Source of the DNA: Lachnospiraceae bacterium
Lineage (GTDB): Bacteria > Bacillota > Clostridia > Lachnospirales > Lachnospiraceae
Reading direction: 5' to 3'
DNA length: 35,142 bases
Assembly: GCA_021202815.1 (NCBI GenBank)
Contig: JAJQCG010000231.1
Location: forward strand, 1-35,142
Positions 12,456 to 28,037 of this stretch are shown in pieces (the first letter of the stretch is position 1; every line of letters starts with the position of its first letter). The notes under the pieces were generated by a model, which was given only the letters and a program-made list of their open reading frames with translations, ran no database searches and had not been told where the DNA came from. A program made the translations under genes and the position numbers.

Positions 12456-13088
12456 ATGGAACGTGAGATAGACTGGACGGAAGTGTCAGACGGATGCTTC
12501 TACCGCGCGAACGATATGGTGCGGGTGGACTGCGGCGGCTGTGCGGGCTGCTCAGAGTGCTGCCGCGGCATGGGCGAGTCGATCGTGCTCGACCCGCTCG
12601 ATGTCTTCCGGCTGTGCGGCGGCCTGCACACGGATTTCAACGGCCTGCTGCAGGGCGGCATCGAGCTGAATATCGTCGACCGCCTGATCCTTCCGAATCT
12701 GTGCATGTCGGGACCGGAGGAGGCCTGCGTATTCCTCGACGCCTCCGGCCGTTGCAGCATCCACGCCTTCCGCCCCGGCTTCTGCCGGATGTTCCCGCTG
12801 GGGCGCTGCTATGAGGACGGCTCCTTCCGCTATTTTCTGCAGGTTCACGAATGCCCGAAGCCAAACAAGGGCAAGGTGAAGGTGAAGAAGTGGCTTGACA
12901 CGCCGAATCTGAAGGAATACGAAGCCTACGTTACCCGCTGGCACTATTATCTGAAGGAGCTGACGGCAGAGGTCCGGGCGGATTCCTCGCGGATGAAACC
13001 GGTCAGCATGGAGCTCCTGCAGCGCTTTTATGTCACGCCCTACCGCCAGGACGACGATTTCTACGGGCAGTTCTACGAGCGCCTCTAA
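12456..13088 (+). CDS. YkgJ family cysteine-cluster protein
   Basis: A 210-aa cytoplasmic protein with an N-terminal CGGCAGCSECCRG cluster, then GRCSIHAFRPGFCRMFPLGR, and a later C in VHECPKPNKG. This is the typical metal (zinc or iron-sulfur) chelating pattern of the YkgJ/UPF0153 family. The biochemical function is not established. Start ATG with AGGAGG upstream, 55 bases after the GTPase-nuclease gene and likely in the same transcript, which ends at the strong terminator downstream. Confidence 0.85.
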   Translation: MEREIDWTEVSDGCFYRANDMVRVDCGGCAGCSECCRGMGESIVLDPLDVFRLCGGLHTDFNGLLQGGIELNIVDRLILPNLCMSGPEEACVFLDASGRCSIHAFRPGFCRMFPLGRCYEDGSFRYFLQVHECPKPNKGKVKVKKWLDTPNLKEYEAYVTRWHYYLKELTAEVRADSSRMKPVSMELLQRFYVTPYRQDDDFYGQFYERL

Positions 13089-13125
13089 GGCGAAAAGTTT
13101 TTCACAAAAACGCAGTTGAATGAAA

Positions 13126-13166
13126 CCCCTCAGTCTCGCGCAAGCGCAGGGACTGAGGGGTTTTTT
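13126..13166 (+). terminator. Strong intrinsic terminator
   Basis: CCCCTCAGTC (13126-13135) pairs with GACTGAGGGG (13151-13160), with a small inner GCGC-AA-GCGC hairpin in the loop, followed directly by TTTTTT. It isolates the recombinase/F1-like region from the genes upstream. Confidence 0.9.
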
Positions 13167-13254
13167 CGTCATTTTTGGTAAAATTGATAATGATTCAGAA
13201 CTGCTGCCGGATGTGTAAAAACGGCAGAGCCCGCAGGGGCGGAAAGGAGGACAG

Positions 13255-13884
13255 GTGGCGCGTATTTACGGTTACGTGAGGGTTTCTACAAAATATCAGA
13301 ATGAGGACAGGCAGATGATTGCCATGAAGGAGATGCAGATTCCCTCAGGAAATATTTATATGGACAAGCAGTCCGGGAAGGATTTTGACCGGCCGAAGTA
13401 TCAGGAGCTGCTGCATCGGCTGGAGCCGGAGGATCTGATCTATGTAAAGAGTATTGACCGGCTGGGTCGGAATTACGAGGAGATACTGGAGCAGTGGCGG
13501 ATTCTGACGAAGGAGAAGGGCTCGGACGTCGTTGTGATCGATATGCCGCTTCTGGACACGCGCCGTGGCAAGGATCTGCTGGGGACATTCATCGCCGACA
13601 TTATGCTGCAGCTTCTATCTTTCGTCGCGGAAAATGAGAGGAGCAATATCCGGCAGCGCCAGGCGGAGGGAATCGCGGCGGCAAGGCTGCGCGGCGTGCG
13701 CTTCGGACGACCGCAGAAGGAAGCACCGGAGGATTTTTCTCAGATTGTGCGTGCCTGGGAGGAAAAGAGTATCAGCTTCGAGGAGGCGGTAGCGTGCAGT
13801 GGATTGAGCGAATCCACCTTTTACCGCCGCCTGAGGGAAATGCGGCAGAACAATAAATCAGCTGTCAAAAAGTGTACTTTCTGA
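13255..13884 (+). CDS. Small serine recombinase (resolvase/invertase family), probable inverter of the adjacent switch
   Basis: A 209-aa site-specific DNA recombinase. The N-terminal catalytic domain starts ARIYGYVRVST with the nucleophile Ser11, and the DRLGRNYEE block carries catalytic arginines. A long helix (LLSFVAENERSNIRQRQAEGI) leads to a C-terminal helix-turn-helix (SFEEAVACSGLSESTFYRRL). Size and order match Hin/Gin invertases and Tn3 resolvases, not the large integrases. Start GTG with GGAAAGGAGG four bases upstream. The last eight codons and the stop lie inside the left inverted site. Because the inner half-sites are identical in inverted orientation, inversion would leave the coding end unchanged. 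Its position next to two inverted sites suggests it inverts the 158-bp segment. Confidence 0.9.
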   Translation: MARIYGYVRVSTKYQNEDRQMIAMKEMQIPSGNIYMDKQSGKDFDRPKYQELLHRLEPEDLIYVKSIDRLGRNYEEILEQWRILTKEKGSDVVVIDMPLLDTRRGKDLLGTFIADIMLQLLSFVAENERSNIRQRQAEGIAAARLRGVRFGRPQKEAPEDFSQIVRAWEEKSISFEEAVACSGLSESTFYRRLREMRQNNKSAVKKCTF

Positions 13885-13888
13885 CAGC
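13861..13888 (+). repeat. Left inversion site (28-bp near-palindrome)
   Basis: Imperfect palindrome with arms beginning GCTGTCA and ending TGACAGC and central dinucleotide GT (13874-13875). Its right half, GTACTTTCTGACAGC, is the exact reverse complement of the left half of the site at 14019-14046. Over all 28 bases the two sites match 26/28 in inverted but only 24/28 in direct orientation. Confidence 0.8.
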
Positions 13889-14018
13889 CGTCTTTCTATT
13901 AATAAATTATCATAAGTAAAACAGAAAATCAATACCTATTTGACATATCTGTGTTTGTATCCGCGTTGTATCCACCAATCCGGTTCCGTTATTTACATAT
14001 TTCCGGCGCAATCGTGTC
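13889..14018. promoter_or_regulatory. Putative invertible promoter segment (about 130 bp between sites)
   Basis: AT-rich non-coding segment between the two inverted sites. The most promoter-like sequence is on the minus strand: TTGATT (complement of 13927-13932) followed by TTATGATAATTT (the GATAAT is the complement of 13906-13911). It points toward the recombinase, so in this orientation the downstream operon may be off. On the plus strand there is a perfect TTGACA (13940-13945) but no good -10 box 16-18 bases later. The orientation call is tentative. Confidence 0.5.
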
Positions 14019-14046
14019 GCTGTCAGAAAGTACAGTTTCTGACAGC
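14019..14046 (-). repeat. Right inversion site (28-bp near-palindrome)
   Basis: Inverted partner of the site at 13861-13888. It has perfect 11-bp arms (GCTGTCAGAAA/TTTCTGACAGC) and central dinucleotide AC (14032-14033), the complement of GT in the left site. Serine recombinases cut at a 2-bp centre, so opposite non-palindromic centres predict inversion and not deletion. The distance between crossover points is 158 bp. It lies 30 bases upstream of the ATG at 14076. Confidence 0.8.
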
Positions 14047-14075
14047 TGTCCTGCAGATGAGAAAGGAAGCTGAAT

Positions 14076-14864
14076 ATGAGTTGGGAATGGCTGGTGGTCC
14101 TCGTGATCATGCTGGCGATGAATGTGTTCCTTTTTCTCGTCTTCTGGACGGCCGTGCAGCGGGCGGACAGTCAGGTTCGTGAGATATTTTATCGAAAGCT
14201 TCAGGACATTCACTCCATGTCGAAGGAGAGGATGGAAAAACTGGAACAGACGGAGCGAAGCTGCGAGGAGATGGAAGAGAGGCTCCAGGAGCTTCAGGAT
14301 GAGGAACGCAAGCGAAAGAAAGTACAGGTTTATCAGACGGCGGGGGCACAGAAGCTCCAGCCCCTTAGTGCTGTGAGCGTCTCTTCGGCGAGGTTCCGGA
14401 ACACGGAGATAAAGGAGCAGTATCGCTACATCCGGGATCATATGGATATCGATCTGAACGAGGTCGTGCGCGCCTTTACCGCCGGGCTTTCTGACGAACC
14501 GTCGGATGCGGAGGCCTATGAGACTCTGGCCGGGAAATTTCCCTTCGAAGCGCGCTATGAGCTTCTGACGCTCTCGGAGGAGGATCAGGCGCAGGTGCTC
14601 TTCGCGGCGCTCTCCGATACGGAGCGTTCGATTCTGAACGACTATCTGGAGACCTGTGGGGACGGCAGCCTCGACGTGCTGTCGTTTTTTGACTATGTAG
14701 AGTCTGAGGCCAGGCTCCGGGACGGAACGATTCAGGTGTATACCGGAGACCGGGAGAATCCGCTGACGATTCAGGATACACGGGTACGCTGGGCACGCGA
14801 TCCGGGGATCTGCGAGGGCTGCAGGATCCGTTATCGGGACTGCCTGTACGACTACAGTCTGTAA
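14076..14864 (+). CDS. Membrane-anchored coiled-coil protein, possible b/delta-like stalk of the F1-like machine
   Basis: A 262-aa protein, first gene of the long operon. One hydrophobic N-terminal segment (about residues 5-26, WLVVLVIMLAMNVFLFLVFW) is followed by a charged helical stretch with coiled-coil character (about 30-95). The C-terminal domain is mostly acidic and ends in GICEGCRIRYRDC, a possible metal-binding or redox Cys pair. I do not recognise the family by sequence. Its place directly before alpha is where the b and delta subunits sit in standard atp operons, and the topology (TM anchor, long helix, C-terminal cap) resembles a b-delta stator. The stalk role is therefore inferred from position and shape only. 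Start ATG with AAAGGAAG upstream, 30 bases from the inversion site. Confidence 0.6.
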   Translation: MSWEWLVVLVIMLAMNVFLFLVFWTAVQRADSQVREIFYRKLQDIHSMSKERMEKLEQTERSCEEMEERLQELQDEERKRKKVQVYQTAGAQKLQPLSAVSVSSARFRNTEIKEQYRYIRDHMDIDLNEVVRAFTAGLSDEPSDAEAYETLAGKFPFEARYELLTLSEEDQAQVLFAALSDTERSILNDYLETCGDGSLDVLSFFDYVESEARLRDGTIQVYTGDRENPLTIQDTRVRWARDPGICEGCRIRYRDCLYDYSL

Positions 14865-14893
14865 GAAAAGACGAAAGAACGAGGAAGGACAGT

Positions 14894-16216
14894 ATGGAAC
14901 AGTATGTAGAGAACCTGGTACAGGATACCATCAGGAAGATCAAGAATAAAGAGAATGTCCAGCGGATGGGCCGCGTTCTGAAGGTACAGAACTACATTCT
15001 CGAGGTCAGCGGCCTGGAGGACGTGAGCTTCTATGAGCGCGTCGTGATCGGCGAGGGCAGCGAGGGATACGTGAATGGTATTCGTAGAAACGAGGTCACC
15101 GTAGCCATCGTGCGCCGCTGCGGCGACATCTATGTGAACGATCAGGTCATCGCGACCGGCGAGACCTTCCGCGTCAGCTTTGCGGAGGAGTCGCTGGGCC
15201 ATGTGACCGACCTTTTCGGCGTGGACCGCTCCTGCGGTAAGACTTTTGAGGAGCTGATCAGCCTGAATATTGAGAATCCGAATATCCCGATCATGGATCG
15301 TACCGCCGTGTGCCGCCCGCTTGAGACCGGTATCGCCGGCGTAGATCTGATCTATCCGATCGGCAAGGGTCAGCGTCAGCTGATCATCGGCGACAAGAAG
15401 ACCGGCAAGACGCAGATCGCCCTCGACACGATCGTCAACCAGAAGGGCAAGGACGTGATCTGTATCTACGTCTCCGTCGGCAAGACGAAGAAAAATGTAA
15501 AGACGCTCTATGCGGAGCTCATGCGCCGCGGGGCGATGGAGTATACCCATATCCTGTGCGCCTTCAACGACGATACGCTGCCGGTCATCTTCCTGACCCC
15601 CTACGCGGGCGTATCGATCGCGGAGCATTATCTCATGCAGGGAAAGGACGTGCTCGTCGTCATCGACGATCTCTCCCGCCATGCGGACGCCTACCGCGAG
15701 ATCAGCCTGCTGACCGGAAAGGCGCCGGGGCGCGACGCCTACCCGCCCGATATTTTTTACACGCATTCCCGTATGCTCGAGAAGGGCTGCCAGCACAGGA
15801 ACGGCGGCTCGATCACGATCCTGCCGATCGTCGAGACGCGGGGCGGCGATATTACCGATTATATATCGACCAATATTATCTCGATCACGGATGGACAGCT
15901 CGTGCTCTCGAAGAAGAATTTCGATAAGGGCGAGAAGCCCGCGATCAGCTACGGCCTGTCCGTGTCCCGTCTGGGCGGCGCGGTGCAGACGCCGGAGGTC
16001 AAAAAGCTCGGCGCGCGCGTGCGGCGCGAGCTCCTGAGCTACCTGGAGACGAGAGCCGTCTACGAGCTTGCAAATGTAGACGAGATGAGCCCGGAGATGC
16101 AGGCGCGCATCCGCCGCGGCGGCCGTCTCCTCGCGGGGCTTGGCCAGTACAAGTATTCCCCGATGAGCCATGAGGAGATCATCCGGCGCTTCGAGGATAT
16201 CTACAGTCAGGAGTAG
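14894..16216 (+). CDS. F1-like ATPase alpha subunit homologue (C-terminally short)
   Basis: Non-catalytic nucleotide-binding subunit of an F1-type hexamer. The N-terminal beta-barrel domain is followed by the Walker A motif GDKKTGKT (166-173), IYVSVGKTKKNV, VLVVIDDLSRHADAYR (Walker B region) and GRDAYPPDIFYTHSRMLEKG. SVSRLGGAVQT includes the arginine finger (Arg359) that acts on the beta active site. At 440 aa it is about 60 residues shorter than usual, ending soon after QYKYSPMSHEE, where normal alpha continues. It ends in TAG, three bases before gamma. Start ATG with AGGAAGG upstream. The arginine finger argues for an active hydrolase. Divergence and neighbours argue that this is not the housekeeping ATP synthase, so I give no atpA symbol. 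Confidence 0.9.
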   Translation: MEQYVENLVQDTIRKIKNKENVQRMGRVLKVQNYILEVSGLEDVSFYERVVIGEGSEGYVNGIRRNEVTVAIVRRCGDIYVNDQVIATGETFRVSFAEESLGHVTDLFGVDRSCGKTFEELISLNIENPNIPIMDRTAVCRPLETGIAGVDLIYPIGKGQRQLIIGDKKTGKTQIALDTIVNQKGKDVICIYVSVGKTKKNVKTLYAELMRRGAMEYTHILCAFNDDTLPVIFLTPYAGVSIAEHYLMQGKDVLVVIDDLSRHADAYREISLLTGKAPGRDAYPPDIFYTHSRMLEKGCQHRNGGSITILPIVETRGGDITDYISTNIISITDGQLVLSKKNFDKGEKPAISYGLSVSRLGGAVQTPEVKKLGARVRRELLSYLETRAVYELANVDEMSPEMQARIRRGGRLLAGLGQYKYSPMSHEEIIRRFEDIYSQE

Positions 16217-16219
16217 TCT

Positions 16220-18381
<2,162 letters not shown>

Positions 18382-18386
18382 AGAAA

Positions 18387-18824
18387 ATGGCAGCAAGACC
18401 CGGCAAAAAGAAGCAGGAGACGGAAGCGGCGGCGACGGAGCAGCCGAAGAAGTCCCGGAAGGAAAGAAAAGCAGAAAAGCAGCGGGAGCAGGATGACAGC
18501 GGGCGGCGCATGCGCGCGCGCGTGATCAGCATCCGCGACGGCGTGGAGGACTTTGAGAGTGTGCGCGTCGTCCATGTGGACAGCAGCCGCTACACCCTGA
18601 TGCTCATGCCGGACTACACGCCGTCGATCGGCGAGGTGGAGGGCACGGTTCGTATCGTAACCGACGAACGAGTGGAGACCTATGAGCGGGTGAAGGGCTT
18701 CTTCATGCTGCGGGACAATGAATTTCAGCTTCTTGTAAAAGAAGAGTACGCGGTGCCCGCGGAGGCGGCGCAGGAGCCGGAAGGCGGAGAGCTGGAGTTT
18801 ATAGACCTGGAGGGGCAGACATGA
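18387..18824 (+). CDS. Epsilon-like subunit of the F1-like ATPase, with basic N-terminal extension
   Basis: A 145-aa soluble protein. Residues 1-40 are a Lys/Glu-rich, probably disordered extension (PGKKKQETEAAATEQPKK). Residues about 45-125 resemble the epsilon N-terminal beta-sandwich: SRYTLMLMPDYTPSIGEVEG aligns with the GELGILPGHAPL region, and ERVKGFFMLRDNEFQLLVKE aligns with the FAVSGGFxEVxDNxVTVLxE strand pair. The usual C-terminal helical hairpin that inhibits ATP hydrolysis is missing, replaced by a short acidic tail. It follows beta as epsilon does in atp operons. The stop overlaps the next start (ATGA). The assignment rests on position plus weak similarity. Confidence 0.65.
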   Translation: MAARPGKKKQETEAAATEQPKKSRKERKAEKQREQDDSGRRMRARVISIRDGVEDFESVRVVHVDSSRYTLMLMPDYTPSIGEVEGTVRIVTDERVETYERVKGFFMLRDNEFQLLVKEEYAVPAEAAQEPEGGELEFIDLEGQT

Positions 18825-19439
18825 GAGACTGGACAGTTTATGTGGTACCCTATGAGGGCTATATTCTACTGGTTCTGGCGCTCGGTCTGCTGATTCTGTT
18901 CTCCTCCTTTCTGCGGATGCGGCAGTTCCGCTTCCAGGGACTGAAGAAGGGGAAATGGTATTACTGCTTCTTTTATGGACTTGGCAATCGCGAGCTCATC
19001 TGTCTGACAGCGGGTACGAGCAGGCTGCTTCTGGTGATTGCAATCGTCCTCTGCGGGCTGGAGCTGCGGCTGACTCATATCGTCTGCCTGCTGCTTCTGA
19101 CGCTGGTCTGGCAGACGGACACGAGAGAAGGAAAACAGATTCTGGCTGCGCTGTTTTCCGATATCATTCAGGTGGCGGGAACCTGCGCGGGGCTGTTTGT
19201 TTATCAGACGCTGCTCCGCTATATGGCGGATATCCGTTCCGCCCTGGATATACGAATTACCAGCATCATGCTGGGGATATTTATTATCATTTATAACGCA
19301 GTGCTGTGGCTGAACCGTCTGCCGCAGCTGGGCGAGAGAAGCCTTATGCAAAGAGAGCATAAGGAAAAGAGACGATTTGGAAAGAGACTGAAGGGAAAGA
19401 GACTGAAGGAAAAGAGACTGGCAGGAAAGGAGAAGGGCT

Positions 19440-19453
<14 letters not shown>
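18821..19453 (+). CDS. Five-TM membrane protein of the F1-like operon, possible stator (a-like) component
   Basis: A 210-aa protein with about five hydrophobic segments (near residues 8-28, 60-80, 85-100, 105-130 and 145-168) and a strongly basic C-terminal tail of about 35 residues (KEKRRFGKRLKGKRLKEKRL), which should be cytoplasmic by the positive-inside rule. I do not recognise it by sequence. Segment number and its place in an operon with alpha, gamma, beta, epsilon and c homologues make an a-like membrane partner possible, but the family's conserved ion-channel motif is not evident. Overlaps epsilon by 4 and the next giant gene by 14 bases. The tail is encoded by in-frame 15-bp tandem repeats. 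Confidence 0.6.
19379..19423 (+). repeat. Three 15-bp in-frame tandem repeats
   Basis: GGAAAGAGACTGAAG occurs twice exactly (19379-19393, 19394-19408), followed by a degenerate copy GAAAAGAGACTGGCA (19409-19423). Each unit adds five codons (KRLKG/KRLKE-type) to the basic tail of the five-TM protein, so slippage would change tail length without breaking the frame. Confidence 0.8.
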
Positions 19454-26102
<6,649 letters not shown>

Positions 26103-26135
26103 GCAGAGGTTCGAAGCGAAAAAGGAGGATATCGT

Positions 26136-28037
26136 ATGAGAAAATTGAGCGGAAAGGCCAAGAGCGGCTTCGCCCTCTTCAGCCTGAGCGTATTCCTGAC
26201 TCTTGTCCTGTTCGGCATGTCGGTGGTGCGGGTGGTAAGCGCCCAGAGTGCATCCTACACGCTGACGGCGGGCAGCATCGTCTATGACAATACTTACAGC
26301 AGCCAGTATCTGTCTGGCGGCGGAAGTGTCTATCGGAGCTGGGACTCCAGCTACTATGTGGAGCAGGCCAGTGAGGACAGCATCAAGCTGGGCACGAGCA
26401 CGGTGGCCTATGAGCCGACTTTGTCTGCGGTGACCGTCTACGGCGGCGGCTACCGCTATGCGTCGGACGGCAGTGTCTATGTGCTGGATGATTATTATCA
26501 GCAGACTGATCTGGAATCCATGGGACTTGTCATGCTGAGTGAGGATCACTACCTGATCACGGGAAGAAATATTTCGGTGAGCTCCGGCGAGGCGAATACC
26601 GATGATTTCCTGTATATCGTCGTGGATCAGGCCGGGAATTCCAGACTGCTGAATGATGAGATCAATGTAAAGGTACTGGACGACCTGCTGGTGACGGGAG
26701 ATTCCTTCTCCCTGGATCTGGCGGCGGGAACAGTCACCTTTGGTTCCATGACCTACAGTCTGGCCGACGCGGCGGCAGCGGCGGCGGATGAGGGCGGCGA
26801 GGTTTATGATATCAGTATTTCCGGCGGAGATGGCGGCAGCGGCGGCAGCGGTGGAACCGGCGGCAGCGGCGGAACCGGCGGGACTGGTGGAACCGGCGGG
26901 ACTGGCGGAACCGGTGGAACCGGCGGCAGCGGCGGCGCAGGCGGCGCAGGCGGGATCGGAGGAACGGGTGGTTCCGGTACAAGCGGCAGCAGCGGGCTGA
27001 CCCAGGAGGAGATGGAAGCGGTCTCCAACATGTATCTGACCTCCGTCACAGCGGGAACGACCTCCCTGACAATCAATTTTTACGCTTACGATCCCTATTC
27101 CATTTACGGAGTGATCTGTTTTGACATTGTGGATGTGACGGATCCGGACACTGTGGTGAAGACGGTCTATGCAGACCCGTCGGAGACCTCCATTACTGTA
27201 TCGGATCTGAATCCGGATACGACCTACAGCATTAAGATGTACTATGTGGGCGGCCTGGACGAAGTCGTGCAGCGCGACTTCATGCGGGCGACGACCAGCG
27301 ATGAGAACGCGTCCATGACGATTACGGCCATTACGGAGAATACAGTCACCTTCACGTTGTATCTGGACGAGGATGTGAACTATAAGAGCGCTACTGTGAC
27401 TCTGTATGATGTGAGTGGTTCCGCACATTATGAGGTCGGCGAGCTGACTGTGAGCGGCAGTTCCAACCTCAAGGCGGCGAAATCAGATGATGGCCTGAGC
27501 AGCCTGACCGTGACGATTGATACCAGTAATGCAAGTCAGATCACGACCTTCCAGGGTTCGCTGATCGCGCTGGGCCTGAATGTGGTCTACACAGACGGCA
27601 ATGAAAGTAGCTCGGAGATCGCATGGGTGCGCACTGCGAACCCGTACGAGTCGGAAACCTCAACGGCGGTCACCACTTCCCTGGTGGAGGAGCTGATCAG
27701 CACCGTGAATGAACTGCAGGCGCGGATTACCGCGCTGGAGGGAAACGCGTCCGCCGATGCGGGAAGTACATCTTCTGACGATTCCGGCAGCTCGAGCTCG
27801 AATGAAAGCACGAGTAGCAGCGGCAGCGGAAGCTCCGCCGCAAGTACGACCAGCAGCGGAAGTTCTGCCGCCGTCACAGGCAGCAGCGAAAGCTCTGCCA
27901 GTACGGGAAACAGCACTGAAAGCACCGCCGAGGGAAGTGACAGTGGAAGTGAAAGCGGCAGCACAGAGTCCGAAAGTGCCGACAACGGCGAGACCAGCGC
28001 GGCAAACACGTCCGACAGCGGAAAAAACCTGGAATAG
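26136..28037 (+). CDS. Secreted/surface protein with (Gly-Gly-X)n stalk and Ser-rich tail
   Basis: A 633-aa protein. The N-terminus has a signal-like segment (FALFSLSVFLTLVLFGMSVV, then VVSAQS, a possible cleavage site). A beta-rich domain spans about 40-225 (SDGSVYVLDDYY, DDFLYIVVDQAGNSRLLND) and a GGT/GGS/GGA repeat about 229-287. Two FN3-like modules cover about 293-510 (for example LNPDTTYSIKMYY). A short coiled coil (SLVEELISTVNELQARITALEG) lies at about 514-535, and a Ser/Gly/Glu-rich low-complexity tail runs to the end. No sortase motif is visible. AAGGAGG precedes the ATG and the gene ends in TAG. Same layout as the 2220-aa neighbour but shorter. The coiled coil suggests oligomerisation. 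Function unknown. Confidence 0.8.
   Translation: MRKLSGKAKSGFALFSLSVFLTLVLFGMSVVRVVSAQSASYTLTAGSIVYDNTYSSQYLSGGGSVYRSWDSSYYVEQASEDSIKLGTSTVAYEPTLSAVTVYGGGYRYASDGSVYVLDDYYQQTDLESMGLVMLSEDHYLITGRNISVSSGEANTDDFLYIVVDQAGNSRLLNDEINVKVLDDLLVTGDSFSLDLAAGTVTFGSMTYSLADAAAAAADEGGEVYDISISGGDGGSGGSGGTGGSGGTGGTGGTGGTGGTGGTGGSGGAGGAGGIGGTGGSGTSGSSGLTQEEMEAVSNMYLTSVTAGTTSLTINFYAYDPYSIYGVICFDIVDVTDPDTVVKTVYADPSETSITVSDLNPDTTYSIKMYYVGGLDEVVQRDFMRATTSDENASMTITAITENTVTFTLYLDEDVNYKSATVTLYDVSGSAHYEVGELTVSGSSNLKAAKSDDGLSSLTVTIDTSNASQITTFQGSLIALGLNVVYTDGNESSSEIAWVRTANPYESETSTAVTTSLVEELISTVNELQARITALEGNASADAGSTSSDDSGSSSSNESTSSSGSGSSAASTTSSGSSAAVTGSSESSASTGNSTESTAEGSDSGSESGSTESESADNGETSAANTSDSGKNLE
26822..26997 (+). 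repeat. GGX-coding tandem repeat tract
   Basis: Repeated 9-base units such as GGAACCGGC, GGGACTGGC and GGCGGCAGC encode Gly-Gly-Thr/Ser/Ala about 17 times. Unit variation is in third positions, so the protein repeat is kept while the DNA has partly diverged. Copy number could change in frame. Confidence 0.75.

Follow-up and report, generated by a model that had tools for sequence, protein, structure and literature searches.

A small serine recombinase and a putative invertible promoter segment upstream of an F1-like operon in a Lachnospiraceae bacterium

Recombinase, crossover sites and operon

The window, that is, the whole stretch of 35,142 nucleotides that was analysed, contains a recombinase gene, a short segment between two inverted sites and a long presumed operon. 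The following features were assigned.

13255-13884, plus strand: small serine recombinase, 209 aa, GTG start, Resolvase N-terminal domain
13859-13888: left crossover site, with a nearly palindromic 26-bp core at 13862-13887 (CTGTCAAAAAGTG/TACTTTCTGACAG)
13881-13908, plus strand: rival promoter-like site CTGACA-16-TAAATT; -35 CTGACA at 13881-13886, inside the left site, and -10 TAAATT at 13903-13908
13889-14018: interior of the putative invertible segment, 130 bp between the inverted arms
13904-13932, minus strand: main predicted promoter TTGATT-17-TAATTT with a TGn extended -10, facing the recombinase; -10 at 15 bp from the segment end
14019-14048: right crossover site, inverted relative to the left; core at 14020-14045
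14062-14069, plus strand: sequence resembling a ribosome-binding site, AAAGGAAG, before ATG 14076, as read in the sequence
14076-14864, plus strand: first operon gene, 262 aa; hydrophobic stretch at the N terminus, followed by a charged region that is probably coiled-coil, as read from the sequence
14894-16216, plus strand: F1-like alpha
16220-17005, plus strand: F1-like gamma
about 16996-18381, plus strand: F1-like beta
18387-28037, plus strand: remainder of the presumed operon, with a 145-aa protein, a 210-aa membrane protein and surface-type proteins of 2220 and 633 aa with Gly-rich stretches

The gene at 13255 encodes a small serine recombinase (resolvase/invertase). The Resolvase domain was matched with Pfam (PF00239, 2.5e-27), the motifs YGYVRVS and SIDRLGRN are kept in the translation, and the gene looks intact, with an unbroken frame. 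The nearest solved structures are the Sin/Tn552 bin3 and gamma-delta resolvases, and the best NCBIfam match is Mpi at 8e-12, far below the cut-off. The gene lies outside the interior at 13889-14018, directly 5' of the segment, and its stop codon sits within the left crossover site. Upstream of it is a CxxCxxCC gene, which carries an internal deletion in a sibling species (L071:3354-3455 in reverse-complement numbering; L071 is the locus of the sibling L033).

The inverted arms are 30 nt long, 93% complementary and separated by 130 nt, so that the whole switch spans ~190 bp. Both arms are 26-bp sites of nearly palindromic sequence (CTGTCAnAAAnTGTACTTTCTGACAG) whose GT centre is asymmetric, and the two lie in inverted orientation (left site, 13874-13875 on the plus strand; right site, 14033-14032 on the minus strand). 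The GT at 13874-13875 is the putative overlap, an assignment backed by contigs of relatives that end at the GTGTAC core. As read from the sequence, the inner half-sites are identical, and a flip between the GT centres would therefore leave the recombinase reading frame unchanged. At up to 3 mismatches the site pair is unique in the genome, and the genome site search found no second contig with the opposite orientation in this assembly. The left site, read on the minus strand, folds into a 14-bp hairpin with ATTTATTGTT after it. This element was listed by a terminator scan that returned 2 candidates against 0.9 ± 1.0 expected, hence a weak signal. No tandem repeats were found, and an Rfam search of 13000-14300 gave sub-threshold matches only.

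In the operon, the block from 14894 to 18381 was matched by PF00006/PF00231 and by NCBIfam F1 models. All three F1-like proteins remained below the equivalog cut-offs of the ATP synthase and mycoplasma models; for the mycoplasma models MMOB1660/1670 and MSC_0618/0619, bit scores against cut-offs were 379/600, 368/850, 285/520 and 390/570. Strong relatives of the gamma-like subunit were seen in only 4 of 299 genera. The gene order of the operon is the same in L033 (L071) and mostly kept in a third species, L034 (L072). A paralogous F1-like operon is present in the same genome (L067), and seven more were found in other genomes (L063-L066, L068-L070). Before the first gene of these eight operons there is no recombinase and no convincing site pair, which argues against the switch as a general component of the F1-like operon.

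A predicted promoter in the segment and its counterparts in related species

The sequence-only reading of this DNA had placed the best promoter of the segment on the minus strand, facing the recombinase. Candidates were scored with weights that approximate sigma-A frequencies, drawn from general knowledge. With these weights, TTGATT-17-TAATTT (-35 at 13932-13927, -10 at 13909-13904, 17-nt spacer) reached 8.5 and was the top minus-strand candidate within 13089-14900, in line with that placement. The score is unremarkable alone, as at least 8.5 was reached by 18 sites on both strands of the 35-kb window. On the plus strand, no usable -10 accompanies the TTGACA near 13940, as had been noted before; what that reading missed is CTGACA-16-TAAATT, which scores 8.2 without a TGn element. 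The promoter prediction proposed earlier as a check thus picked out the minus-strand site with a nearly equal plus-strand rival. When the arms were included in the scoring, the state calls for the window and for L033 turned ambiguous. No better promoter was found outside the segment within 13089-14900, and neither the upstream sequence nor the gap from the right site to ATG 14076 held a good one.

Two ways of judging promoters were discarded. A sigma-70 consensus scan as the sole judge misses the main promoter, offers plus-strand CTGACA sites and ignores both the TGn element and the comparison between species. Scoring without comparison was rejected as weak, given the closeness of the rival and the number of sites with equal scores. 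It is the conservation in L033 and L034 that lifts the main promoter above chance.

The sibling species L033 has the same layout as the window; the protein of the first operon gene is 98% identical and the recombinase about 88%. Its segment matches the reverse complement of the window segment with a local score of 37, compared with 15.9 ± 2.2 for shuffled sequences (0 of 300). Against the forward strand the score was 19 (p about 0.11), with no alignment above the shuffles. The predicted L033 promoter, TTGCTT-17-TATTTT, faces the operon (ON). In L034 there is no recombinase beside the operon, and a single degenerate site is left over. At 14 bp from that site, TTGATT-17-TAACAT faces the operon and outscores all other plus-strand promoter candidates within 300 bp; it stands at the same distance and in the ON direction, and scores 9.2 versus 5.7 for the reverse candidate. 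A partner site elsewhere in L034 was not found with a 28-nt search pattern, which its 27-nt site misfits.

The promoter layout is thus kept in all three species, with a 17-nt spacer and a -10 at 14-15 bp from the site. Judged from the predicted elements, the window would have the shared layout in the OFF state and L033 in the ON state, and L034 would apparently be locked ON. The comparison shows conservation of the predicted promoter and opposite orientations between species; both orientations of the window locus were seen between the window species and L033, not within the window species. The sequenced orientation is most likely OFF for the operon, as previously proposed. This assignment draws on the L033 segment, which matches the reverse complement only, on the ON direction kept in L034 without a recombinase, and on the scan for promoters outside the segment; the plus-strand CTGACA-16-TAAATT site leaves some doubt. 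After inversion the -10 would end 72 nt before ATG 14076, close to the "about 75" bases estimated earlier, and fold prediction places the site hairpin in the mRNA leader, again as anticipated.

Related modules across the Lachnospiraceae

The survey of the family covered 299 genomes, one per genus, and a relative of the recombinase at E 1e-20 was present in 100 of them. We examined 101 recombinase loci, the window and L033 included. A site pair lies directly 3' of the recombinase gene in 48 of these loci, compared with 0 of 303 shuffles; in 4 loci it lies upstream. The cores are mostly GTGTAC, GTATAC or GTCTAC, and the segments measure 77-241 bp (median 116). The best promoter score per segment was 10.8 versus 7.5 in shuffles (p 3e-14). 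The segments are dominated by one promoter, with a strand difference of 4.7 versus 2.2 (p 3e-11), and the distance from the winning -10 to the segment end is 10-45 bp in 34 of 40 cases. By predicted promoter, 27 modules were called OFF, 13 ON and 8 unclear. Clean calls gave 24 OFF to 9 ON (p 0.014); inclusion of the arms gave 25 OFF to 11 ON with 12 unclear, the window and L033 among the latter. Homologous segments in opposite orientations were found in four pairs (L108/L115, L084/L088, L079/L082 and window/L033), and in those of the stronger pairs that have a call for both members, the states called from the promoters match the alignment.

Assembly breaks in relatives were also inspected. In the genomes G003 and G307, the second of which belongs to the genus of the window, contigs stop precisely at the GTGTAC core. 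In G302, also of that genus, the contig end reads recombinase flank, site, segment, site and then the reverse complement of the same flank, as expected if the reads held both orientations. These ends indicate real flipping in relatives, as assembly signatures and not as proof for the window locus. Contig ends within 100 bp were found in 4 of 70 cases versus 0 of 73 (p 0.055), a result that alone is suggestive only; two of those four contigs (L187, L188) do not break at a site.

Pfam-backed targets of the modules include an MBOAT and another acyltransferase, C5 and EcoRI-type DNA methylases, a SNF2-type helicase, an antigen I/II-like protein, a GBS104-like pilus protein, a LytR-CpsA-Psr protein and an Ig-like-domain protein. 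A small serine recombinase with a 3' promoter segment would form a stereotyped and widespread switch in Lachnospiraceae, and the sequence by itself could serve to predict its orientation in many genomes. The genome of the window itself carries a second module (L111:1608-1760, G000:C25), with a recombinase 50% identical to the first and a GTATAC core; it was called OFF and precedes a large surface-type protein with GLUG motifs. A sub-type (L134, L137, L109) has GTAGAC/GTCTAC cores, short segments and a -35 (TAGACT) that overlaps the site; the modules L134 and L137 target a protein of roughly 90 aa.

Proposed switch, alternatives and known systems

We consider the locus, with a probability of roughly 0.78, to be a phase-variation switch. 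The recombinase at 13255 would act on the two inverted sites and flip the roughly 190-bp segment, which would carry a single promoter that faces outward. As sequenced, this promoter would face the 3' end of the recombinase gene and leave the operon from 14076 OFF or weakly transcribed. Inversion would place the transcription start about 65 nt before the first ATG, with the site hairpin in the leader, and turn the whole operon ON. We infer, first, that inversion is the work of the window recombinase itself, second, that transcription depends on which way the segment lies and, third, that the operon genes are transcribed as a single unit. The locus has the features of a promoter inverton: inverted repeats beyond chance, a predicted promoter able to face the controlled gene, and both orientations, here between species and within a population only in the modules of relatives. 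With this reading, an operon of unassigned function receives an ON/OFF state that can be tested; if the operon is silent in culture, it may simply be in the OFF orientation.

It is rather unlikely that the present orientation is not silent and that CTGACA-16-TAAATT drives the operon from the plus strand, which would make the switch high/low or reverse it. The near-equal score of this site and the -35 elements that overlap the site in other modules, such as L134 and L137, speak for it. Against it, CTGACA is accounted for by the recombination site itself, and the candidate has no TGn element. Its counterpart scores 7.9 in L033 (CTGACA-17-AAAAAT) and only 5.7 in L034, compared with the 9.2 of TTGATT-17-TAACAT.

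A feedback on switching through antisense RNA into the recombinase gene had also been suggested from the sequence; an added feedback of this kind, in which the OFF-state promoter makes antisense RNA on the recombinase and thereby stabilizes OFF, we consider unlikely. The promoter is convergent with the recombinase in the window, and OFF is in excess among the clean calls of the family as well as with arms included. The terminator-like hairpin of the left site, followed by ATTTATTGTT, stands in the way on the antisense strand, where the RNA may stop before most of the gene. Across modules, T is slightly more frequent in the minus-strand flank past the left site than in the right flank (3.9 versus 3.0 T in 9 nt, p 0.02). 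The OFF excess could also stem from selection or biased recombination, and a survey of gut invertons found adjacent invertases to be generally not regulatable by the embedded promoter, in passages that do not deal with antisense RNA (PMC11892184).

A dead remnant that no longer flips in the window species is quite improbable. Only one orientation is present in this assembly, and a single-site version without an adjacent recombinase exists in L034; against this, the recombinase frame is intact with conserved motifs, both sites are intact, and same-genus relatives show assembly signs of both orientations. Least probable is a switch after initiation, in which transcription enters from outside, for example by read-through from the recombinase, and orientation sets termination: the sites do form hairpins, with the present plus-strand left hairpin followed by a T-rich CGTCTTTCTATT that inversion would swap for GACACGATTG, and the Rho-dependent flagellar switch of C. 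difficile is a precedent (PMC7446863), but a good promoter is lacking both upstream and in the stretch that separates the right site from ATG 14076, and a predicted promoter inside the segment is conserved in three species. Orientation-dependent termination and a site-borne promoter are thus less well supported than the switch by a segment promoter.

Promoter invertons beside recombinases are already known, and what is unusual here is the target operon. Hin is a serine recombinase that acts on inverted, two-fold symmetric 26-bp sites with a central 2-bp overlap and has both its own gene and the promoter on an inverted segment of about 1 kb. The window shares with Hin/Gin the serine recombinase, the 26-bp symmetric inverted sites with a putative 2-bp overlap and the predicted segment promoter, whereas its recombinase gene lies outside the segment and its interior measures 130 bp. 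Mpi, the master serine invertase of Bacteroides fragilis, acts on many promoters genome-wide. It resembles the window system in promoter inversion and is the best NCBIfam match of the recombinase, but the window genome has one matching site pair (at up to 3 mismatches), unlike the genome of a master invertase. RecV is a tyrosine recombinase. The C. difficile switches associated with it (cwpV, flgB, cmrRST) are similar to the proposed one in that they are phase-variable surface or motility operons in Clostridia; the window recombinase differs in having a Resolvase (serine) domain. Control of C. difficile flgB is by orientation-dependent Rho termination (PMC7446863), whereas the predicted promoter of the window lies in the segment.

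Gut promoter invertons are like the window locus in the short promoter segment between inverted repeats, the adjacent recombinase and the surface-related targets (PMC11892184). The main text of that survey makes no mention of serine recombinases, and the strongest link it gives for Clostridia is with tyrosine-type recombinases (group 139 invertons, group 35 invertases) (PMC11892184). Compared with the surveyed invertons, the family described here has a small serine recombinase directly upstream of a stereotyped segment of 77-241 bp.

The F1-like ATPases of mycoplasmas (Type 2/3; MMOB1660/1670, MSC_0618/0619) have alpha-, beta- and gamma-like subunits and no recognisable Fo (PMC3369863). The window operon likewise has alpha-, beta- and gamma-like subunits without recognisable Fo; it differs in alpha and beta scores below the cut-offs, in the giant Gly-rich surface-type proteins and in the proposed phase switch. 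As a speculative extension, the operon might encode a rotary-ATPase-derived machine without an ion-pumping Fo, tied to the giant surface proteins and switched per cell by a flippable promoter, with an OFF state that may self-stabilise through antisense RNA on the recombinase. In paralogous operons, a c-subunit-like protein is encoded directly before the first gene (L067:4170-4415, G000:C129; L063:4009-4254; L069:3175-3420), a position at which the window operon has no such gene. It matches Pfam ATP-synt_C with 24.1 bits (cut-off 24) and has no acidic residue in the second helix, so it probably cannot carry ions.

Close relatives of the window recombinase (60-62%) were also found in gut phage records (MT835780.1, 13426-13992; MT836372.1, 215-787), and the switch module may travel on phages.
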